Both the position numbers and the translations under genes were made by a program. Positions 20,343 through 64,000 of a stretch of DNA of 64,000 nucleotides are shown here, piece after piece (the stretch's first letter is position 1; every line of letters begins with the position of its first letter). The stretch is from Gammaproteobacteria bacterium (GTDB lineage: Bacteria; Pseudomonadota; Gammaproteobacteria; JAPPPA01). Below the pieces are notes generated by a model, which searched no databases, was not told the origin of the DNA, and saw only the letters and a program-made list of their open reading frames with translations. Where the stretch lies: NCBI GenBank assembly GCA_030425645.1, contig JAUHZK010000001.1, positions 248,001 through 312,000 of the forward strand. Reading direction: 5' to 3'.

Positions 20343-22691
20343 ATGGATAAGCAAGCCAAGGGCTCGAATGGCAATGGCCTGATTGAGCGTTATGGTCGCG
20401 GCGTTATTCGCTGGCGTTGGTTAGTCTTGCTGGCTTCATTCTCGGCCATGGCGGTGAGCTTTTATAGCATCAGCCAGAATGTGAAATTCTCGACCGACTA
20501 TCGCGACTTCTTCGGCCCCGGTAACCCGCAGGTCTTGGCCTTTGACAAGATTGAGGCCGACTACACCAAGCTCGACCAAATCAGTTTTATTCTGGCCCCA
20601 GAAGAAGGCACGGTGTTAAGCCCGCGCATTATTGAGAGTATGCGCTGGATGACTGAAGAAGGCTGGCAGCTGCCTTATGCCACGCGTGTCGATTCCTTAA
20701 CCAATTTTCAAAATACCACGGCCATTGGCGACGACCTAAACGTTGAGCCGTTAGTAACAGAATACGGTGAAGTGACCCAGGCCGATGTAGACCGCGTACG
20801 CGAAGTGGCGCTTAACGAGCCCTTGCTCACCGACTCACTTATCTCTAAAAATCTAGCTGAGCCGGGCCAATATGGTGCGGTGGCTGTAACGTTTACGTTG
20901 CCGAAGAAGAAGCTCTCAGAAACGCCCGAAGCGGTAGCTGCTGCGCGCGATTTAGAGCAACGCTATATGGAGAAGTATCCGGGCGTAAAGATTTATATGA
21001 TTGGGCCAACCATGCTCAGCGTGGCGTTTTTGGAAGCCTCTAAAAACGACAGCATCAACCTCACGCCGATTCAGTATTTGGTCATTATTAGCGTGTTGTG
21101 GTTATTGCTGCGCTCAGTTTCTGGCCTGATTAGTACCATGCTGGTGATTACCGCCTCGGCGTTAGCGGCCTTTGGTATTGCTACCGCGATGGGGATTACC
21201 ATTACCTCCATCACCGCCACCACGCCCACCATCATTATGACTTTGGCGGTGGCAGACAGTATTCACCTACTGGTAGCGATGCTGCTACAAATGCGTAAGG
21301 GCGCCAGCCGCGACGATGCGCTAGTAGAGTCATTGCGGCTGAATATGGGGCCGGTGTTTCTGACCTCGATTACTACCGCAGTCGGCTTTCTGAGTATGAA
21401 CTTTTCCGACTCGCCGCCGCTACGCGACCTAGGCAATATTTCCGCCATTGGCGTGATGATGGCCTTCCTGTTTTCAGTCACCACCTTGCCCGCAGTCATG
21501 GCCATTTTGCCGGTTAAGGTGCGCCAGTCTGAAGACCGCATTGCCGCGTTTAGCTCGCGCTACGGCGGTTGGTTAGTGGGGCGCTGGCAGGCGGCGCTAG
21601 TAGCGTCTGCCATCGTGGTCGGCGGGCTTGGTTGGATGGCGCAATACAACAAGTTTGGCGACGACGACTTTGTGCGCTACTTCAGCGAAGACATTCGTTT
21701 CCGTACCGATACTGACTTTGCCCGTGACCATTACTCCGGCTTTATGGGTGTGTTTTATGACCTAGACACCAAAGAAGACTGGGGCGTGGCCGAGCCCGAC
21801 TACCTGCGTAAGTTGGAAGCGTTTGAAGCCTGGTGGTACGAAAATCCCGATGTCACCAATGTGCGCTCGATTGCGCCATTAATGAAACGCATCAATAAAT
21901 CCATGAATGGCGATGCCCCTGCGGCCTATGCCATTCCAGACGAACGAGCGTTGTCGGTAGAGAACCTGTTCCTCTACGAAATGAGTTTGCCGTTTGGCTT
22001 GGACATTAACCAACAAATTAATAGCGAGAAATCTGGCAGCCTTTTCCGCGTCACCTTCGGTGATGTGGCGTCAGAGAAAATTCGCCGTTACGGTGCCGAC
22101 GGCGAACAATGGCTGAAAGACAATGCGCCAGAGTTGCTGACCCAAGTCACCGGCCCGCCGCTAATGTTTGCCCATATTAGTTTGCGTAATATTGAATCGA
22201 TGCAATCTGGCACCTTGATCGCGATGCTCGCTATTTCTGCTTTGCTGATGATTGCCTTGCGCAACCTGAAACTCGGTGCCTTATCACTGGTGCCGAACTT
22301 GCTGCCGTTGATTATGACGTTAGGCGTGTGGGCCATTATTCACGGCAATATCATCTTCACCAACGCCGTGGTTAGCGGCATGGTGCTGGGTATTGTGGTG
22401 GATTACACCATTCACTTTTTATCGAAGTACTTACGCGCCCGTCGCGAAATGGGCTTGAGTACCGAGGCTGCTGTTCGCAGTGCCTTCACCATGGTGGGTG
22501 CGCCTATTGTGGCCACTTCGGTGATTTTGGTTGCTGGCTTCTTGGTGTTAACTACCTCTGATTTCGCCGGTAACTCGACTATGGCGGGCCTCACCAGTAT
22601 TGCGATTGTGTTGGCGCTGATCTGTGACTTTGTACTGTTGCCTGCGTTACTGATGTGGCTGGACAACAGTGAACGCAAAGCGACGCGTTAA
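20343..22691 (+). CDS. RND superfamily transporter, MMPL type
   Basis: The 782-residue inner-membrane protein has the two-fold RND/MMPL plan: TM1 near residues 23-45, a periplasmic domain, TM2-6 near 240-395, TM7 near 415, a second periplasmic domain, then TM8-12 near 625-775. The proton-relay regions are LAVADSIHLLVAML in the first half and VLGIVVDYTIHFLSKY in the second, both with Asp. MMPL proteins of this kind move hydrophobic lipids or hopanoid-like molecules. The start follows GGGAGAAGG. It converges on a DUF1302 outer-membrane protein, a frequent partner type in such bacteria. Confidence 0.9.
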   Translation: MDKQAKGSNGNGLIERYGRGVIRWRWLVLLASFSAMAVSFYSISQNVKFSTDYRDFFGPGNPQVLAFDKIEADYTKLDQISFILAPEEGTVLSPRIIESMRWMTEEGWQLPYATRVDSLTNFQNTTAIGDDLNVEPLVTEYGEVTQADVDRVREVALNEPLLTDSLISKNLAEPGQYGAVAVTFTLPKKKLSETPEAVAAARDLEQRYMEKYPGVKIYMIGPTMLSVAFLEASKNDSINLTPIQYLVIISVLWLLLRSVSGLISTMLVITASALAAFGIATAMGITITSITATTPTIIMTLAVADSIHLLVAMLLQMRKGASRDDALVESLRLNMGPVFLTSITTAVGFLSMNFSDSPPLRDLGNISAIGVMMAFLFSVTTLPAVMAILPVKVRQSEDRIAAFSSRYGGWLVGRWQAALVASAIVVGGLGWMAQYNKFGDDDFVRYFSEDIRFRTDTDFARDHYSGFMGVFYDLDTKEDWGVAEPDYLRKLEAFEAWWYENPDVTNVRSIAPLMKRINKSMNGDAPAAYAIPDERALSVENLFLYEMSLPFGLDINQQINSEKSGSLFRVTFGDVASEKIRRYGADGEQWLKDNAPELLTQVTGPPLMFAHISLRNIESMQSGTLIAMLAISALLMIALRNLKLGALSLVPNLLPLIMTLGVWAIIHGNIIFTNAVVSGMVLGIVVDYTIHFLSKYLRARREMGLSTEAAVRSAFTMVGAPIVATSVILVAGFLVLTTSDFAGNSTMAGLTSIAIVLALICDFVLLPALLMWLDNSERKATR

Positions 22692-51197: not shown

Positions 51198-53615
51198 CTA
51201 CTGCTGCCAGCCTGGCTCCCAGGTATTGTGGAACGACGGACTAGCCCAGCCGCTAGGGAAGTCGGCGCGTGGCATTTGTGTGCCGCCGTAAATCACGTCG
51301 CCAAGCTCGTCTTGATAGCTTAGCCAGGTAATGGTGGGTTGCCAGCCGAGTGGGCGTTTTGACCAGTCGCAGACCATCGCTTCGCCGTTAACGTCGAAGG
51401 CGGCTTCGAGCTGTTGCCACTCGCTTTCAGTCCAGTCTGGGAACGGCAGTGGCAAGCCATCATTGGCAAAGCCGTAATCGTCGTTGCGGTCGAGTGGTTT
51501 GAGTTGGCACTGTACTTGGTCGCCGTATTGGTCGGCACCGGCCTCTGTTCTTGGTGTGCCAAAGACCGTCATGGTGGCTTCAGGGCACATGTTGCCGGGG
51601 ATACCGTTGCAACGGTCGGCGGCACTGTCAGGTCGATTCGAAAGCACCTTCTCAGCTAGCGGTCGATCGCTGCTATCGGCCTCAATCGCGTCTAGCCATT
51701 CGCCCATCGCAACTAAGGATTGGTTCATATAGTTGATGTCGCCAATCAGTACGGTTGCGCCGCCCCAGTGCGCGAAATTGCCGTGGTGGCCAAATTCGCG
51801 GTCAAGGCGCCAGCGTACCCAGTAGCCATGCACGGCGTCGTGGGCTGCGCCTGGATCAGGGCCAGTCATGTTAATAATTGGCACTGTGTCCATGTTCACA
51901 ATGGTATTGAGAATGCCCGTACGATAAGCGTTTGGCAGTGCTGGGTAGTCGGGTTTTAGCCGTTCGGGGGTCACGTTTAGGCTCGGGTCAACACCGCCAA
52001 TATTGACGTTAAGCGCTAAAAACTGAGCTGGGGTGATAACGCCACTTTGCAGTTGTTTAAGGCCATATTGCACGCCTTCGTTGCCAAGTGGGAAGCCAGC
52101 AAAGCCGTAGCCTAAATCTTGCTCAATTTGTGACCAGTGGTCACGCGGGTCTTCGCTTGGAAAACGTTCACGCGGGCCAACCATGTTTGTCATAAAGGTC
52201 AGCACGTCGCAGCGTACGCCGCCTGGGTTGGTATCGTTATCGAAGCGCGTGGTGACATCGCCAGCAATGGTGTCGGGTACGCCGCTGCAGTTCGACGCGG
52301 GGTTAACCGCTTCGCCAAAGAGGGCAGAGTCGGCCAGCGATGCGTTTACGATACCGGCTAGGTGACCGTAAATAGCGTTCTGCTGTGGAATGGTGAAGAC
52401 GGTACCGTCGCGGGCTGTGTTGGCTGTGATAACGGTATTAACCAAGTTGTTAACTTGGGTGACAAAGCCATCAAAGTCGCTAGGGGCCGATGGGATATCA
52501 ATGCTGGCGTCAAAGTATTTCAGCAAGATGTGATAGTCGGCGAACTGGGTGGCGGTACTCATTACGTCTGGGTAAGTACAGGTAGTGAGTAGACCTTGGT
52601 ATAAACCCGGGTAAGCATTGGCGATCATGTTTTGAGTAATGGCACCGCCTGAGCAGCCGCTGCCAACGGTATAACGCAGCTCGCCGTAGTGTTCGATAAA
52701 GCGTTCCTTTGCCATCATCAATGCTTCTGCCTGATAAGACAGGTTGCAGTTGTGGCCGAGGTTAAGCTGAGAGGCGGCGACCACGGACCAGCCTAGGCCG
52801 AGTGCGGTGATATACGATTGTTCTGTCACAGGGTTGGCTGGAATCGTGCCGGAATAGTCGTCGGTGCGAGGGGAGCCAGTGCTGTGATGACCGCGGCAGT
52901 TGCCGCCGTGCGGCACCATTACAGCGCCATTCCATTGTGATTGTGGTGCTGCAGGCGTCCAGTCTTCACCTTCTTTAAAGAGGGTGTAAAAGGCGTATTC
53001 ATCACGCCCTTGGAAACCGCTTTCCTTTCTTACGATAAATGGCACCGTTTCACCGTTTTCGGTGGTGGTGGTGGCGACATCGTTTGCTGGGTTAGCTGGG
53101 TCGTATTCTTGTAGGCCGCCGTTAGCCGGGTTGGTCGACTTATAAAGCCAGCTATAGCTCACAGGCTGATTACATTGGTCGTCCTCGGCGTCGCCGTTAT
53201 TACAGGCCCAAGGCTGGATTTGCGGGCCGGTAAATACAGGGCCACCAGTTGGGTGGTTGGTAATGTCTACGCTATTACCAATGTTCGCGGCAATGGTGTT
53301 GTCGCCTAAGTTCAGCCCTTCGATGCGGCCTAGCAAGCGTAGAGGATTGTCGCTGGTGGCTTGTAGTTGCGAGGTAACATCGCTGCCGTTGAGCTCTAAA
53401 ACCAAATCGTTAAGGTCTTCGGCGCTATCGAGTACCACTTCGATCAAAACGTCGCCGCCGGAAATTAGGTCGGCGCGATTGGACACGACGGCGACCGAGG
53501 CTCTACCGAGGTCACTGTTATTGTTGCCGCTGTTATTGCCACCGGTACCGCTGGGGCTGTTATTGCCACAGCCAGCTAACGCAGCCACTAGGGCCGCGAA
53601 TAAAATATTCTTCAT
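51198..53615 (-). CDS. DUF6351 family lipoprotein, alpha/beta-hydrolase-like
   Basis: The 805-residue protein begins with a lipoprotein signal (LVAALAGCGN, Cys16) and an Asn/Gly/Ser linker. VVSNRADLISGGDVLIEVVL and DITNHPTGGPVFTGPQIQPW are typical DUF6351 openings. The nucleophile elbow YTVGSGCSGGAITQN suggests a serine hydrolase related to tannase/3-hydroxybutyrate oligomer hydrolases. HGNFAHWGGATVLIG and DPGAAHDAVHGYWVRW follow in the C-terminal half. It is a predicted secreted or surface esterase, divergent from an AraC gene at 53783. Preceded by GGAGACAAATC. Confidence 0.85.
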   Translation of the reverse strand: MKNILFAALVAALAGCGNNSPSGTGGNNSGNNNSDLGRASVAVVSNRADLISGGDVLIEVVLDSAEDLNDLVLELNGSDVTSQLQATSDNPLRLLGRIEGLNLGDNTIAANIGNSVDITNHPTGGPVFTGPQIQPWACNNGDAEDDQCNQPVSYSWLYKSTNPANGGLQEYDPANPANDVATTTTENGETVPFIVRKESGFQGRDEYAFYTLFKEGEDWTPAAPQSQWNGAVMVPHGGNCRGHHSTGSPRTDDYSGTIPANPVTEQSYITALGLGWSVVAASQLNLGHNCNLSYQAEALMMAKERFIEHYGELRYTVGSGCSGGAITQNMIANAYPGLYQGLLTTCTYPDVMSTATQFADYHILLKYFDASIDIPSAPSDFDGFVTQVNNLVNTVITANTARDGTVFTIPQQNAIYGHLAGIVNASLADSALFGEAVNPASNCSGVPDTIAGDVTTRFDNDTNPGGVRCDVLTFMTNMVGPRERFPSEDPRDHWSQIEQDLGYGFAGFPLGNEGVQYGLKQLQSGVITPAQFLALNVNIGGVDPSLNVTPERLKPDYPALPNAYRTGILNTIVNMDTVPIINMTGPDPGAAHDAVHGYWVRWRLDREFGHHGNFAHWGGATVLIGDINYMNQSLVAMGEWLDAIEADSSDRPLAEKVLSNRPDSAADRCNGIPGNMCPEATMTVFGTPRTEAGADQYGDQVQCQLKPLDRNDDYGFANDGLPLPFPDWTESEWQQLEAAFDVNGEAMVCDWSKRPLGWQPTITWLSYQDELGDVIYGGTQMPRADFPSGWASPSFHNTWEPGWQQ

Positions 53616-56594: not shown

Positions 56595-59396
56595 TTAGGC
56601 GTGTTGCACGCGATCGGTTAACTCAGCAATACGCGCTGCCTGATTCTGGTTCAGGTTGCGGTAAATAATGGCAGCAATACGCGGATGCCGTTTGCGTAGC
56701 GTCTCAAGGTCTTCGGTATTGAATTTCAGTACCCGCACGCGGGTCATGGCGTCAACATTGGCACTGCGTTTTTTGTTAAAAGAGCCGACCTCACCCAAGA
56801 CTGCACCACGGCGTAGCGTATTCAGGCTAATACGTTCGCCTTTGTCGTTCGGTACCCAAACTTCTAAGGTGCCGTCTATCAGTACATAGATATTATTGGC
56901 GTCGCGGCCTTTTTCAATAATGCGGCTACCGGCGCGGTGCGTGGTGAAATTGCTCATTAAGGCAAAACGACGAGCTTGGCGCAGGTTGAGCCCTTGTAGC
57001 AAAGGAATAGAGCGTTGTGGGTCGTGCCCCAAATCGAGTCGTAGCACGTCCCACAAGGTCACAATCTTCAGTCGCGAGGCCATCGCTGGGGTGAAGGTGA
57101 CGTCGGTAATCCAAGCCATGGCCAAGGTAAAGGCGGCTAATGCACCAAATTCGACTTGGTTTTTTAATTCCGAATCGGTCATCACCAGAAAGCCGCAGAC
57201 TAGGGCGATAGAGGTGAAGGTAATTGGCCGGATAACGCCGTTGAGGGTGGCGTAGGTAGCTTTTTCCTCGCTGGCGGCTTGTTTGGCTTCGGCGTTAAAA
57301 CGCACGAGGTAGTGAATGGTGTCATCCACCGCAATACCGAGCACGATGCAGGCAATAAGGCTGGTGGTCGGGTTGAGGGTGATCCCAAATAGTCCTAGTG
57401 CACCAAAATAAATCGCGATTGGGATCACGTTCGGCATTAGCGCCATAAAGCCGACGCGGCGAGAGGTGAATAACAGCGTCAAGATGATCCAAATCACCAC
57501 GAGGGCAAGCCCGAAGGAGACCAGCTGGCCGCCGGCAATATCATCAACTGTACGGGTAGCGAGCACGGATGAGCCGGTGGCGCGACCAATCATCGGCGGC
57601 GGTAGACGTTTTAAGCGGGTTTCGACGCGCTGTAATAGGGCGTTAATGCTGGCGGTGTCTTCAACATTGGCGCGTACGGCAATTTTGATGGTGTGGTATT
57701 CGGCGTCAACAAAACTACGCAACTCGTCGCCGCCGCCAAACAAAAATAGCTGCTTAATAGTGCGGGGTTCGTCCGGAATGTTATAGCTTTCGGGGTCGCC
57801 GGCATTGAGGTTTTGGTTGATTTGCAGCAGTAGATCAACCAAAGAGTGGGTGTCGGCGACTTCCGGTTGTTCTTCTAGCCAATTTTGTAGCGAGCGAATA
57901 TCGGCTAACACTTCGGGTTGCACGAAGGTGTCTTTTACATAACCCTCAATCACAATAAAGAACGGGCTGGCACCGCCGAGTGTGCTGTTGATGAATTCGT
58001 AGTCTTGGCGTAGTTCTGAGGTCTCTGGGAAGTCAGAAATATAGCTGCTGCCGACTTCAATACGGCTGGCGCCGTATAAAGCCACGGCGAGGGTGGCAAA
58101 ACCCAGCGTCAAGATCAGTGGCCGTAACTTCAGGTTGTATCGAGCCAGGAAATCCGCGGTGCGGGCAAACAGCCTTGAGCCGGTAGGCATGCGTATTTTT
58201 TTAACCTTGCCGGCGACGGTGAGTGTGGCAGGTAAAAAAGTCAGCGCCAACAACACCGTATAGGCGACGCCGAGCGTAGCGAAAAACGCAAATTCTTTAA
58301 CCGCGGCTAAGGGGTTAACCAATAGTGCTAGAAAACCGGCGCTGGTGGTGAGGCCGGTAATAAATAGTGGTAGCGATATTTTGTCGAGTACCCAGCGCAA
58401 GCGTTGGCTTGGCATGATGCTGCCCGGCTGATGATGGCGGAAGCTCTCGTAATACTCAGTGATGACGTGCATGCAGTATGCCAAGCCCAGAGTGATAATG
58501 ACCGGCGGCACAATCACCGTAACCATATTCAGTGGCCGATTCAGCAATACCATGGTGGCTAGCGTCCAAGCCAAGCTCACAATAATGGTAGCAATGGGCA
58601 GCACGGTGGCGCGCAGAGAGCGGAACGCCAGCAATAATAGCGCTGAAAGAATAAGACCAATCAGCGGTAGCGCCTTGGTCAGTTCCTTGAATAAGGTTTC
58701 AGCGGTTGCGTCTTTGACAACCAAACCACCGGTAATCCAGCTTTCAAAATAAGGGTCTTGCTGCTCCACAATGCTGCGTAGCTGCTTTACTAAGTCGCTC
58801 TCTAATAAGGCGCGGTCACCAATATCTCGTAGACCAACGAGGACGGTGCCGACTTGGGCATCGGCGGTAATTAAGGTGTTGCGGTAAAGGTCATTCAGCA
58901 AAATCGCTTGGCGAGCTTCGTTACTGAAATTGGCTTCTTGCAACTGGTCGTAAATATTGCCGAAGCTGATTTCTTCTTGGCTGACTTGGATGGCGGGTGC
59001 GGTGGCAATGGAGATAACAGAGTGCACACCGGGCAGTTCAGCAATTTCCGCAGCCATGTTTTGAATGCGCTGCAGCGGCTCGGCTCGTAGCACATTGGCG
59101 GTTTCGCCATTAATGGCGTGCGGGCGTAGCGCAACCACAATGGCGTCGTCGCTGCCAAAAATATGGCGGTTGTGACGGTAGAAGTTCAGGTCTTCGTCAT
59201 CACGAGGCAGAAGCCGGTCTAGTGAGGGATCAACGTCTAGCCGCAAGCTGCCCGTTTTTAGATCCACTAAGCTTAGGCCGGCTAAGCTGGTTAACGCGAA
59301 GACAACTAGAATGCACCACCAAGCTTTGTCGGTGGCAAAGCTGACCAAGGCGCTGGCTGCGCGTTGGGGGATTTCTTCTTCGTTAACGTTGGCCAT
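56595..59396 (-). CDS. RND/MMPL transporter fused to a cyclic-nucleotide-binding domain
   Basis: The 933-residue protein has a normal MMPL body (TM1 near 28-50, two periplasmic domains, 12 helices) ending near residue 780, then an extra cytoplasmic domain at 811-933. That domain is a CAP_ED/cNMP-binding fold: GSRIIEKGRDANNIYVLIDG, then the phosphate-binding cassette GAVLGEVGSFNKKRSANVDA with the expected Glu869 and Arg877-Ser-Ala. The second-half proton-relay site has GIAVDDTIHYL; the first-half equivalent (LGLAYCMHVITEYY) lacks Asp. It probably exports lipids under nucleotide control. It is the last gene of the operon with the LolA-like and cyclase genes. Confidence 0.92.
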   Translation of the reverse strand: MANVNEEEIPQRAASALVSFATDKAWWCILVVFALTSLAGLSLVDLKTGSLRLDVDPSLDRLLPRDDEDLNFYRHNRHIFGSDDAIVVALRPHAINGETANVLRAEPLQRIQNMAAEIAELPGVHSVISIATAPAIQVSQEEISFGNIYDQLQEANFSNEARQAILLNDLYRNTLITADAQVGTVLVGLRDIGDRALLESDLVKQLRSIVEQQDPYFESWITGGLVVKDATAETLFKELTKALPLIGLILSALLLLAFRSLRATVLPIATIIVSLAWTLATMVLLNRPLNMVTVIVPPVIITLGLAYCMHVITEYYESFRHHQPGSIMPSQRLRWVLDKISLPLFITGLTTSAGFLALLVNPLAAVKEFAFFATLGVAYTVLLALTFLPATLTVAGKVKKIRMPTGSRLFARTADFLARYNLKLRPLILTLGFATLAVALYGASRIEVGSSYISDFPETSELRQDYEFINSTLGGASPFFIVIEGYVKDTFVQPEVLADIRSLQNWLEEQPEVADTHSLVDLLLQINQNLNAGDPESYNIPDEPRTIKQLFLFGGGDELRSFVDAEYHTIKIAVRANVEDTASINALLQRVETRLKRLPPPMIGRATGSSVLATRTVDDIAGGQLVSFGLALVVIWIILTLLFTSRRVGFMALMPNVIPIAIYFGALGLFGITLNPTTSLIACIVLGIAVDDTIHYLVRFNAEAKQAASEEKATYATLNGVIRPITFTSIALVCGFLVMTDSELKNQVEFGALAAFTLAMAWITDVTFTPAMASRLKIVTLWDVLRLDLGHDPQRSIPLLQGLNLRQARRFALMSNFTTHRAGSRIIEKGRDANNIYVLIDGTLEVWVPNDKGERISLNTLRRGAVLGEVGSFNKKRSANVDAMTRVRVLKFNTEDLETLRKRHPRIAAIIYRNLNQNQAARIAELTDRVQHA

Positions 59397-59407: not shown

Positions 59408-60190
59408 CTAGCGCACTTTATAAAAATTGCTGGGGCTAAAGGTGCGCGACGAAATTTTGTCGTCGTATTCGACGCGAGTGATTTCTACCTCGGTGCGGGT
59501 CTCATTTAGCTTGTCTTCCATGCTGGCGCGTCTGGCTAGCCAGCGCTCACCAATTTGGCTAAGGCTCAATGGGTCTACGCTAAGCACTTTGCGGGCTTCG
59601 GTGTCTTGCTCAAATAGTTCGGACATCAGTGGCACGCAGGTGGCTTGGTCAACTTGATTAACCACTCTTTGGTAGCTGCTATTCGGATCCGTTGGCACCA
59701 TGGTGATGATCCATGTGGGCCTTTCGCCAATGCTGCCGGTGCCGTCAAGACTCAGTTCGCCACTACTGGCAATGGCCTGTAAATAGCGAATATCTTCATA
59801 GCTAAAATCGGTGCCCCAGAGCTTACCTTTTGAGGTGTTGCCCTTAATGCGATGGACGCGTTTGATGGCCGGTATATAGGAATACACGGTCTGCTCGCCA
59901 GCTTCTTGAATGGCGAGATAGGCCGCGCCTTCGAGGTCTAGCGGCGAATCAATTCTGGCCATCAGGCGGGTGTCTTTGTCGTCTCGGTGGCGCCACCATA
60001 GGCGTGCGCTAAGGGCTTGCTCGCTACCGGCACGGTCAATGCTGCGCAGTCGAACCGACTGCTCGCTAGTGGTGGTGGGGATATTGGCAAGCATGCATTG
60101 TTGGATGCTTTCTAGTGTCGCTGGCGTGCTCTCGGCCCGCGCCGCCAGGCTCAGTAAAATCAGCGGCAAAAATAATATCGAACTACGCAT
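59408..60190 (-). CDS. LolA-like outer-membrane lipoprotein-sorting family protein
   Basis: The 260-residue protein has a signal peptide (SILFLPLILLSLAARAES) and the beta-rich pattern of the PF17131-type family: DTRLMARIDSPLDLEGAAYL, TVYSYIPAIKRVHRIKGNTS, GKLWGTDFSYEDIRYL. Relatives are found next to MMPL/RND transporters and may carry the exported lipid through the periplasm. It ends 11 bp before the RND start, so the two are co-translated. The cyclase gene ends 123 bp upstream. Confidence 0.88.
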   Translation of the reverse strand: MRSSILFLPLILLSLAARAESTPATLESIQQCMLANIPTTTSEQSVRLRSIDRAGSEQALSARLWWRHRDDKDTRLMARIDSPLDLEGAAYLAIQEAGEQTVYSYIPAIKRVHRIKGNTSKGKLWGTDFSYEDIRYLQAIASSGELSLDGTGSIGERPTWIITMVPTDPNSSYQRVVNQVDQATCVPLMSELFEQDTEARKVLSVDPLSLSQIGERWLARRASMEDKLNETRTEVEITRVEYDDKISSRTFSPSNFYKVR

Positions 60191-60313: not shown

Positions 60314-63300
60314 CTAGGCGGCTAATTCCGGGTGTTTTTGTTGCAACCGCTCGGCGTGGCCGTCGGCACCGTAATCAACAAACAGCTGGTGCGCTTTGCT
60401 GAGGCATTCGTTAGCCTCGTTACGTTGATTTCTGACCCAGTGCAGGCGGGCGGTTTCTTCAAGCATGAACGGTGTCAGCATAACCGCGCCGGTTTGGCTA
60501 ATGAGTGTATTAATGGCATTAAGGTGCTGCTCGGTCAGCGCTGGGCTATCTTTGCCGAGTTTGCGTAATACGCTGAGCATGGTTAGGCGTGTTTGGCACT
60601 CGACAATTCTGGCGTGGCGTTGCTGCGATTCGGCAATGGCCTGCTCGCCGATTTTGAAGGCTTCTTCCAAGCGGCCGGCGCCCAGCAATGCCCGCGTGTA
60701 GGTGGCGAGGTTGGCGGCCTTGAATTGATAGGCCGCAGTGCCTTTTTCGGTCAGAGGAATGGCGGTTTCGCAGGCTTCGATGGCCACATCCCAGCGTTCA
60801 GCAAGGCAATTGGCAATGGCCACGGCACGTTGGGCGTTGGCAATAAAGAAGTGACTTTGATTCTCGCTGGCGCGAATGATGGAGTCTTTAGCCGCTTGCA
60901 GGGCTTTTTCGCTATTACCGCTAAGGTTGCAATATTCGACTACATTGCCATAGAACCAGCTAACCGGAGTTTGTCTCTGGGTCGCCATTTCAATCGAAGC
61001 GATGAGGTCTTGATGGGCTTCATTCAGCTGGCCCATATAACTAATCATGAGTGCGCGAAAACCACGCGAGTAATAGTTGTCTAAGGTAACTGGGCCTTCG
61101 GTCCACGGTTCACAGCCCGGTTCGGTGAGTATTTGCAGGCCTTCCTTGACCCGGCCTGCACCAAAGTAGGCCACCATAATCGAGGTGCGAAAACGGCTCT
61201 CCACTTCCTCGCCGCCGTGGGCTGCACGTGCTGTGCGTAGTGCTTCAGTGGTGTTGATGACGGCATCGTCGGCATCGGAGTCGCGCATTTGCGCCATGGC
61301 GTAACTGACTTGTAGTTCTGCGAGGGCGGTCTTGTCTTCGCTTTCGGCGACTAGGCTTTTGGCCTCAAGCCAAGCCTGTTCGGCTTCTTCAAACGGTAAC
61401 TGATAGAAGGTGGCGATGCGCAAAATGCCGGCGCGGGCGGTAATGCGGCCGTGTAAAACTTTGGCTGAAAGCGGTGCCTTGTCTAGCAGCTCAATCGCGC
61501 GTCGGTAACGTCGTAAGGCGTCGTCCATGTCTTTGGCCGCCATATAGGTGGCAGCGATGGGTAGCCAATGGGCGGCTTGGTCCCAGAGTTTGGCGCGCTC
61601 GTAGTGATGTGCCAGCTGTAGGCTGGCTTCGCTGCGAGAGGCAATATCACCGGCTTCGGCCTCAATCAGTTCGGCTAATTGTGAGTGGGTTTGCTGGCGG
61701 CGACTTTTCAGTTGGCTGTGGTAAGCCACTTCTTGCACCAGTGGGTGCCGGAATTGCCAATGACAGGGATCAGTCTCGTCGCAGCTGTCATCCAGAATGG
61801 TGGGCTCCATAAAGCCGAGCGTTCTCAGCGCGTTGAGGTCGTCAAGCAAGTTTGCGTCCTTGATATCCGCGTCTGACTTCTGTAGCAGCGTCAGTAACAT
61901 GGCGCGGGCGACTTGTTTGCCGATGACAGCGGCGCTTAACAGTGTTTGTTTCTGGGTTTCGTTTAGGCGGTCAATACGAGCGCCAATAACGGCATGGATG
62001 GTGTCCGGGATTTTGACATCTTCAACCGCCTTAGTAAGCCGCAGCGAGCCGGCTTCGCCGACAAGGGTGCCGGCTTCCAAAAAGGCTTGCAGGGCTTCTT
62101 CAACAAAATAGGGGTTGCCAGCGGCGCGTTCGGCCAAGCGCTGTCTGAGGCTGGCGAGTTCGCTATCGCAACCAATCAGGCGCTCGGCTAGCTCCAGCAT
62201 GGCTTGGTCATCTAAGGGGCGTAGGCCTAGGTGAAGATCGGCTTGGTTTAACCAACTGGGTTTTTCATGCGGCCGGTAGTTAAAGATGATCGATACCGGG
62301 TGTTCGCAGACTTCGCTGCGCATACGCTCTAGAAAGGCCAGTGTGCCTTCGTCGGCCCAATGCACGTCATCAACAATCACCAAGCTGCGGCGGTCTGGTG
62401 CGGCAGCGTTAAAGCGATCATAAAACTCGAACAGTTTTTCTAAACGTAGTTCCGGCGGCAGATTGAGCGCGGGTTTGCTGGGGTCGGCAATCTCCAAAAA
62501 CTCAAACATCAGTTGTAAGGAGTTGTCGTCGCCAATGTTCATCAAGGTGATGGCGCCGGCGACTTTTTGTCGAGCGCTGGCATTGTCGTCACTGTCGATA
62601 ATGCCGAAGTAAGCACCGATAAGTTCGCGCATTGGTTGGAACGGCGCGGCATTGGCGTAAGGCACGCAGGCGCAGCTATAGACTTCAATATCTTCGCTGC
62701 GGGCGATTTCGGCAATCTCGTGGCAGATCCGGCTTTTGCCAATACCAGCATCGCCTTCCACTGTGGCAATAATGCCGCGTGGTTTTTCCGCCTTAAAGTT
62801 AAGCACTTGCGCCAGTGATTCGAGCTCGCCTTCGCGCCCAATAAAGGGAGATAGTCCGCGTTTGCGGCTGAGGTCGAGCCGAGTGCGGAGGCGGCCTTCG
62901 CTTTCTAGCTCATACAGTTCAATCGGTTCGCTGACGCCTTTGACTTTGCTGGCGCCAAGGTTGTTAAGTTTGAAATAACCCTCTACTAGGCGAGCGGTGT
63001 AGCGTGTCATTAACACGCTGCCAGGGGCTGCTAGGCTTTCCATGCGTGCGGCTAGACCCACGGTGTGGCCTTGGGCGGTGTAATCCATACGTAGGTCATC
63101 GCCAATACTGCCAACGATGACTTCGCCGGAATTGAGACCAATGCGGGTGGAGATATTAAGGCCGTCTTCTAGACGTAAACGTTGCCCAAAGTCGGCTAGA
63201 CGGTCGCGCAGGGTGATGCCAGCGCGACAAGCACGGGCAGCGTGGTCTTCATGGGCAACGGGCGCGCCAAACAGGGCCATAATGCCATCGCCGGTATATT

Positions 63301-63712
63301 GGTTGATGGTGCCCTCAAAGCGGTGCACTTCTTCACCTAGGATGGCGAAAAACTCATCCAGAATTTCGTGCCAGCGTTCGGCGTCGACTTGTTCTGCGAG
63401 ATCAAGAGAGCCTTTAAGATCGACAAACATCACCGTCACTTGCTTGCGCTCGCCTTCCAGCGCGCTGCGGCTGCTGAGAATGCGGTCAGCTAAATGTTTG
63501 GGTGTGTAGTCTTTGGGGCTTGCTTGGGTCTTGCGGCTTGGGGCTTCACTAGTGCTAGCAGTCGCGAGTGAATTGCCACACTGGTTGCAGAATTTTGAGT
63601 CAGCGGGATTTTCGGCGCCACATTGAGCGCAGCCGGGTTTTAAGCTGCTGCCGCACTGGTTGCAGAAGCGAGCGTTGTCGGCGTTGTCGTGATGGCAGTT
63701 TGTGCATTGCAT
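60314..63712 (-). CDS. Zinc-ribbon/class III nucleotide cyclase/ATPase/TPR signalling protein
   Basis: With the ATG at 63712, preceded by GAGGA, the product is 1132 residues. Residues 1-48 form a double zinc ribbon (four CxxC pairs). Residues about 88-270 are a class III cyclase domain with metal Asp98 (VMFVDLKGS) and Asp142 (YTGDGIMALFG). The purine-selecting Lys is Gln138, and the transition-state Asn position is Gly219, while Arg223 is kept. An AAA-type ATPase follows (Walker A GDAGIGKS at 320-327, Walker B LVIVDD at 444-449), then helical TPR-like repeats to the end. It is the first gene of the RND-cNBD operon. Confidence 0.9.
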   Translation of the reverse strand: MQCTNCHHDNADNARFCNQCGSSLKPGCAQCGAENPADSKFCNQCGNSLATASTSEAPSRKTQASPKDYTPKHLADRILSSRSALEGERKQVTVMFVDLKGSLDLAEQVDAERWHEILDEFFAILGEEVHRFEGTINQYTGDGIMALFGAPVAHEDHAARACRAGITLRDRLADFGQRLRLEDGLNISTRIGLNSGEVIVGSIGDDLRMDYTAQGHTVGLAARMESLAAPGSVLMTRYTARLVEGYFKLNNLGASKVKGVSEPIELYELESEGRLRTRLDLSRKRGLSPFIGREGELESLAQVLNFKAEKPRGIIATVEGDAGIGKSRICHEIAEIARSEDIEVYSCACVPYANAAPFQPMRELIGAYFGIIDSDDNASARQKVAGAITLMNIGDDNSLQLMFEFLEIADPSKPALNLPPELRLEKLFEFYDRFNAAAPDRRSLVIVDDVHWADEGTLAFLERMRSEVCEHPVSIIFNYRPHEKPSWLNQADLHLGLRPLDDQAMLELAERLIGCDSELASLRQRLAERAAGNPYFVEEALQAFLEAGTLVGEAGSLRLTKAVEDVKIPDTIHAVIGARIDRLNETQKQTLLSAAVIGKQVARAMLLTLLQKSDADIKDANLLDDLNALRTLGFMEPTILDDSCDETDPCHWQFRHPLVQEVAYHSQLKSRRQQTHSQLAELIEAEAGDIASRSEASLQLAHHYERAKLWDQAAHWLPIAATYMAAKDMDDALRRYRRAIELLDKAPLSAKVLHGRITARAGILRIATFYQLPFEEAEQAWLEAKSLVAESEDKTALAELQVSYAMAQMRDSDADDAVINTTEALRTARAAHGGEEVESRFRTSIMVAYFGAGRVKEGLQILTEPGCEPWTEGPVTLDNYYSRGFRALMISYMGQLNEAHQDLIASIEMATQRQTPVSWFYGNVVEYCNLSGNSEKALQAAKDSIIRASENQSHFFIANAQRAVAIANCLAERWDVAIEACETAIPLTEKGTAAYQFKAANLATYTRALLGAGRLEEAFKIGEQAIAESQQRHARIVECQTRLTMLSVLRKLGKDSPALTEQHLNAINTLISQTGAVMLTPFMLEETARLHWVRNQRNEANECLSKAHQLFVDYGADGHAERLQQKHPELAA

Positions 63713-64000
63713 AGGAAGTCCTCGCTGACAGCATAACAAAGCTAATTTTATTGTGGTGGCTAGGCCGATTTTTTGCGCAGCTGATAGGTTGGCAGTTGCG
63801 CAATTTTGCTGCGTATTGGCTGTTTTAAGCAAACGCTCGCGGCTCAAATTGTCTTCAATTCTGCAGGTTTGTCTGCTTGATTGTTATGTTGTTGTTTTTA
63901 AATAAAAAAATCCGATAACGCGGCAAGTTTTGATTGCCTAAAAACGCCCAAAAACCGACGAACGGTAGTTTGAGCGGTATGTGTAACCACCGTTCACCAA
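63713..64000. other. Non-coding upstream region of the cyclase operon
   Basis: The 288 bp to the right edge contain no convincing gene. The segment around 63880-63915 is AT-rich (poly-T/poly-A) and could hold the promoter. An imperfect inverted repeat GAACGGTAG / CCACCGTTC lies at 63960-63995. The open frame continuing upstream from 63712 to 63847 has no conserved start. Confidence 0.5.

Follow-up and report, generated by a model that had tools for sequence, protein, structure and literature searches.

A gene in the 64,000-nucleotide stretch of gammaproteobacterial DNA analysed here (the window) raises the question of why a membrane transporter of the RND type ends in a cyclic-nucleotide-binding (CNB) domain, and whether this domain still serves to bind a nucleotide. 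The features of the locus are listed in Table 1. The 933-amino-acid open reading frame (ORF) matched both Pfam MMPL, in two stretches corresponding to the two halves of the transporter (99.5 bits; cut-off, 20.5), and cNMP_binding, at residues 820 to 904 (55.4 bits; cut-off, 27.5; E value, 6e-15), which confirms the fusion proposed in a preliminary description of this DNA. The full-length model (pLDDT, 86) contains 12 transmembrane (TM) helices, two periplasmic domains, and a C-terminal beta-roll. The CNB domain follows TM12, and the predicted topology fits the earlier placement of this domain at the cytoplasmic end of the transporter. Pfam detected no helix-turn-helix in the protein, which sets it apart from the CRP/FNR transcription factors and agrees with the earlier view that the fusion does not involve a DNA-binding domain.

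Table 1. Positions of the features of the RND-CNB locus in the window
Feature	Positions	Strand	Basis
MMPL/RND transporter with C-terminal CNB domain, CDS, 933 aa	56595..59396	-	ORF, Pfam, model
RND (MMPL-type) core, residues 1-772	57081..59396	-	Pfam, Foldseek to MmpL4/MmpL5, conservation
Linker near TM12, conserved TLWDxLxLxLG motif, residues 773-804	56985..57080	-	
Cyclic-nucleotide-binding (CNB) domain, residues 805-933	56598..56984	-	Pfam, PDB sequence matches, AlphaFold, fold match
Phosphate-binding cassette GEVGSFNKKRSA, residues 868-879, including E869 and R877	56760..56795	-	
C-helix (lid) segment with P905, N914, and R922	56631..56684	-	Conservation in fusions
LolA-like periplasmic protein (PF17131), 260 aa, signal-peptide-like N-terminus	59408..60190	-	Pfam; pairing in relatives
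Class III nucleotide cyclase: double zinc ribbon, cyclase domain, AAA_16, TPR	60314..63712	-	Pfam

No description of an RND-CNB or MMPL-CNB fusion was found in the open-access papers searched. None of the 30 CNB families compiled in PMC2246266 is RND, MFS-CNB fusions are mentioned in PMC10710835, and a match to the query on a Thalassospira plasmid is annotated merely as an MMPL family transporter. MloK1, HCN, and bacterial MscS-CNB proteins likewise carry a cytoplasmic C-terminal CNB domain, connected by a linker after the last membrane helix, and the CNB domains of HCN and MloK1 match that of the window protein at Z scores of about 15 to 16. However, these proteins are ion channels, whereas the window protein is a predicted proton-driven exporter.

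The translation of positions 56760 to 56795, GEVGSFNKKRSA, contains both the glutamate (E869) and the arginine (R877) that the preliminary description had assigned to the phosphate-binding cassette. The spacing that it gave, GE(V)G..F....RSA, is inexact, since one residue separates G871 from F873 and three residues separate F873 from R877. This difference is important, as the distance from E to R is 8 residues in the window protein, compared with 9 residues in canonical CNB families (Kannan 2007, Table 1; PMC2246266) and 10 residues in E. coli CRP (E-x9-R, by alignment). We found 89 distinct RND-CNB fusions by searching whole genomes together with named genome contigs. The E-x7-R form is found in the window protein and 54 members of its clade (55 sequences), and the remaining 34 have E-x8-R or E-x9-R, with R 9 to 10 residues after E. 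The cassette of the window clade is one residue shorter than the canonical E-x8-R, which is no bar to binding, since length varies among proven binders such as E. coli CRP.

Both E869 and R877 are kept in 87 of the 89 fusions and G868 in all of them, so the cassette is not a chance resemblance. G842, N914, and R922 are also invariant (89/89 each), P905 is kept in 88 fusions, and G830 is kept in 86. G830 occupies the position of PKA G169, which is coupled to the phosphate arginine. R209 and the co-evolving G169 (PKA numbering) are the signature of canonical CNB domains (PMC2246266), and the window protein possesses the GE...R cassette together with the coupled beta2-beta3 glycine (E869, R877, and G830). 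A counter-example to this conservation is L046/L151 (G213), in which the cassette has been lost (GAATLFHGRHFAN), with E changed to A and R changed to H. The identities of the cassette residues do not separate cAMP from cGMP, and the E/R motif points neither to nor away from c-di-GMP.

Structure prediction of residues 805 to 933, named in the preliminary description as a check, gave a CRP-type fold. AlphaFold, run on 27 sequences, predicted the domain with a pLDDT of 87, with the beta-roll and C-helix of canonical CNB domains and with the cassette helix present. Thermus CAP ranked first among the fold matches (Z score, 19.2; rmsd, 1.4 over 134 residues), with cAMP-bound mycobacterial CRP and GlxR next, and the matches also included the c-di-GMP-responsive CLP and a PycTIR CNB domain with cUMP. 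The domain resembles the CRP family in fold, in its E/R/Ser-Ala cassette, and in the arginine-coupled glycine, but it has no DNA-binding domain, follows the last TM helix of a pump, and has a cassette shorter than that of canonical families. In comparison with a sister species (86% identity), pN/pS was 0.06 for the CNB domain and 0.17 for the RND pump, ratios that are approximate because synonymous sites are far towards saturation. Purifying selection is stronger on the CNB domain than on the pump. The retained E, R, and Gly, this constraint, and the predicted CRP-like fold support the earlier proposal of a non-degenerate domain that has probably kept ligand binding.

The pump core matched MmpL4 and MmpL5, with a Foldseek TM-score, normalised to target length, reaching 0.80 for MmpL4, and HpnN, NPC1-type proteins, and Patched were also among its fold matches. 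Polar or charged residues in TM4 and TM10 serve to energise RND pumps, and such residues are found at these proton-relay positions in the fusions, including H310 in TM4 (kept in 82/89) and D691 and D692 in TM10 (84/89 and 83/89, respectively). His695 is a further conserved residue of TM10. Because the core is MmpL4/5-like and the TM10 Asp and His residues are kept, the pump is probably energised. It is similar to the MmpL/HAE3-type RND proteins (MmpL3/4/5 and HpnN) in fold, topology, and Pfam MMPL membership, but it shares only 14 to 16% identity with them and is paired with a LolA-like gene. Its score against the HAE3 subfamily (TIGR00921, NCBIfam) was 230.6 bits, below the curated cut-off of 351.9, and the one characterised member of the HAE3 family is a hopanoid exporter (PMC3924187). 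The TLWD linker was present in 80 of the 89 fusions versus none of 63 CNB-less RND genes, a contrast that is inflated because one search pattern was the TLWD motif itself. The genome that contains the window also has CNB-less MMPL/RND genes at window positions 20343 to 22688 (+) and at L171:3663-6769, and in L171 a LolA-like gene directly follows the RND gene, the reverse of the order at the fusion locus.

The LolA-like gene lies 11 bp upstream of the RND-CNB gene on the same strand, and its product belongs to PF17131 (LolA-like protein, Pfam; 123.7 bits; cut-off, 30). MMPL and LolA-like parts are also linked in Thalassolituus TOL_3187. A role in moving hydrophobic cargo or components of the envelope is proposed for such proteins, and long alkanes strongly induce TOL_3187 (PMC6304351). 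A cyclic nucleotide domain is mentioned 0 times in that paper, which distinguishes TOL_3187 from the window pump.

The cyclase gene lies upstream of the LolA-like gene, on the same strand as the RND-CNB gene. Its ORF extends mechanically from 60314 to 63847, and the internal ATG at 63712 is the likely start. The cyclase domain (Guanylate_cyc, Pfam; 80.2 bits) contains the two metal Asp residues and the transition-state Arg, and the metal Asp residues, Thr, and the transition-state Arg are present in all 22 cyclases of such cassettes. The position of the transition-state Asn is occupied by N in 12, G in 5 (including the window cyclase), H in 4, and S in 1. In addition, all 22 have Gln at the position where class III cyclases are expected to have the substrate Lys. 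The activity of the window cyclase is uncertain because of its Gly in place of Asn and Gln in place of Lys, and its product and rate do not follow from these residues. Two other class III cyclases of the same genome, L169 and L170, retain both Asn and Lys, and cyclases of this type could supply the nucleotide in its place.

RND-CNB fusions were found in Gammaproteobacteria, Alphaproteobacteria (Thalassospira and Pacificispira), Myxococcota, Desulfobacterales, Rokubacteria, Omnitrophota, and Muiribacteriota. In a tree of 152 RND proteins, they fell within one well-supported group of 96 rows, which includes 7 CNB-less proteins. In the Solimonas/Nevskia order, the fusion was found in 62 of 85 genomes; the LolA-like gene was directly upstream in all 40 sampled loci, and a same-strand cyclase was upstream of the LolA-like gene in 17 of them. 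The order cyclase, LolA-like gene, and RND-CNB gene recurs in several gammaproteobacterial families. The contig of the sister species includes the LolA-like gene and breaks off within the cyclase gene, of which it covers the 3' part. Only a minority of fusions have an adjacent same-strand cyclase (20/89), versus none of the 63 CNB-less RND genes. Chance proximity was rejected on this comparison (Fisher P of about 1e-5), although the counts are not independent because 19 of the 20 belong to the window's clade of 45; the remaining one, L167, is distant. The downstream neighbours, encoding an SDR, a GreA/B-like protein, a DUF3450-MotA/ExbB fusion, and a DUF1329 protein, are variable and gave no clue to the substrate. 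A HEAT-repeat protein with a C-terminal CNB domain (L075:12600-15614) is encoded directly downstream of an RND-CNB gene, and a divergent upstream gene has two copies of the cyclase domain. Elsewhere in the window, a large tannase-like DUF6351 protein (609.9 bits) is encoded at 51198 to 53615 (-), flanked by two AraC-type regulators.

The genome, which is 99.5% complete, encodes five class III cyclases; no class I cyclase was found in it, and no CRP-type regulator was detected, with HTH_Crp_2 giving no match above the cut-off. Only four of its proteins have CNB domains: besides the RND-CNB pump, these are a CNB-EAL protein and two tandem-CNB pyridine-nucleotide oxidoreductases. The pump is therefore among the few candidate receptors for the products of the five cyclases. 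L169 (C14:3000-22000) and L170 (C12:40000-52000) lie about 4 to 11 kb from the tandem-CNB oxidoreductases, and thus the linkage of a cyclase with a CNB protein recurs in this genome.

With moderate confidence, we favor a mechanism, based on sequences and models, in which cyclase-supplied cyclic nucleotide would bind the CNB domain and gate the export of lipid-like cargo by the RND/MMPL protein, with carriage by the LolA-like protein. The pump would be a proton-driven exporter of a lipid-like molecule, and its cytoplasmic C-terminal CNB domain would take a cyclic mononucleotide, cAMP being likelier than cGMP. The nucleotide-bound domain would alter pump activity through the TLWD linker under TM12. 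Local supply or tuning of the nucleotide would fall to the AAA/TPR class III cyclase encoded upstream, and the LolA-like protein would ferry the released substrate across the periplasm. Binding, ligand identity, the direction of gating, the substrate, and cyclase activity are the elements of this model that we infer. The short cassette, the substituted cyclase residues, the small number of adjacent cyclases, and relatives with kinase or GGDEF domains are points against it. The idea that the cyclic nucleotide is the cargo of the pump and is captured by the CNB domain was set aside because the LolA-like partner suggests lipid cargo.

Relatives that end in a kinase or GGDEF domain raise the possibility that the RND part sends signals rather than receiving them. 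A histidine kinase takes the place of the CNB domain in L091:9821-12796 and L095:1427-4396 (HisKA/HATPase_c, Pfam) and, by sequence, in L094:9821-12799 and L099:2574-5549. All four are within the fusion clade, and their kinase follows the same TM12-proximal linker as in the fusions, in a TAWD variant that the TLWD pattern does not count. In RND-CNB-GGDEF triple fusions, the pump, the CNB domain, and a diguanylate cyclase form one chain (L077, L079, L080, and L088, inside the fusion clade, and also L049, L051, and L165). Kinase and GGDEF domains are output domains, which fits a sensor (transceptor) model. In this model, the RND part, with the same fold as Patched-type proteins, would detect a lipid or the state of its own transport, and the CNB domain of the window protein would respond by changing cyclic nucleotide signalling through release or sequestration of the nucleotide or through contact with the cyclase or another partner. 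This appears unlikely for the window protein, which stops at the CNB domain with no output domain. Moreover, CNB domains are usually input modules, and the proton-relay residues in the TM helices, together with the LolA-like partner, indicate real transport.

It is also rather doubtful that the pocket takes another ligand, such as c-di-GMP (as in Xanthomonas CLP), cUMP, cCMP, or a nucleoside, or that the domain serves mainly in oligomerisation. CLP and the cUMP-bound PycTIR domain among the fold matches, the missing cassette residue in the window clade, and the GGDEF-fused relatives are consistent with this idea; however, the retained E, R, and coupled Gly are the signature of canonical cyclic mononucleotide binders, and the neighbouring gene encodes a class III mononucleotide cyclase rather than a GGDEF protein. 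A vestigial CNB remnant with neither ligand binding nor function is highly improbable: L046/L151 indicates that E and R can be lost, but the domain is under tighter constraint than the pump, and both residues are kept in nearly all fusions.

MmpL/HpnN-type RND pumps carry lipids to the outer envelope, and, to our knowledge, the control of their activity after synthesis is little understood. The cyclase and LolA-like neighbours, which the preliminary description had overlooked, give the RND-CNB fusion its meaning, and the sequences suggest an undescribed and widespread way to switch lipid-type pumps by cyclic nucleotide. We tentatively propose that the cyclase, the LolA-like protein, and the CNB-gated RND pump may form a dedicated system that lets cAMP or cGMP influence envelope lipid export in bacteria directly, without any CRP regulator, and that the RND/linker platform, combined elsewhere with kinase or diguanylate cyclase domains, may be a general interface between pumps and second messengers. 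The idea is accessible to testing through the soluble 129-residue domain (residues 805 to 933). If it is true, a built-in cyclic nucleotide receptor with a neighbouring cyclase would place lipid export under direct second-messenger control and would provide a clue to the purpose of cyclic nucleotides in a genome that encodes five class III cyclases but no CRP.
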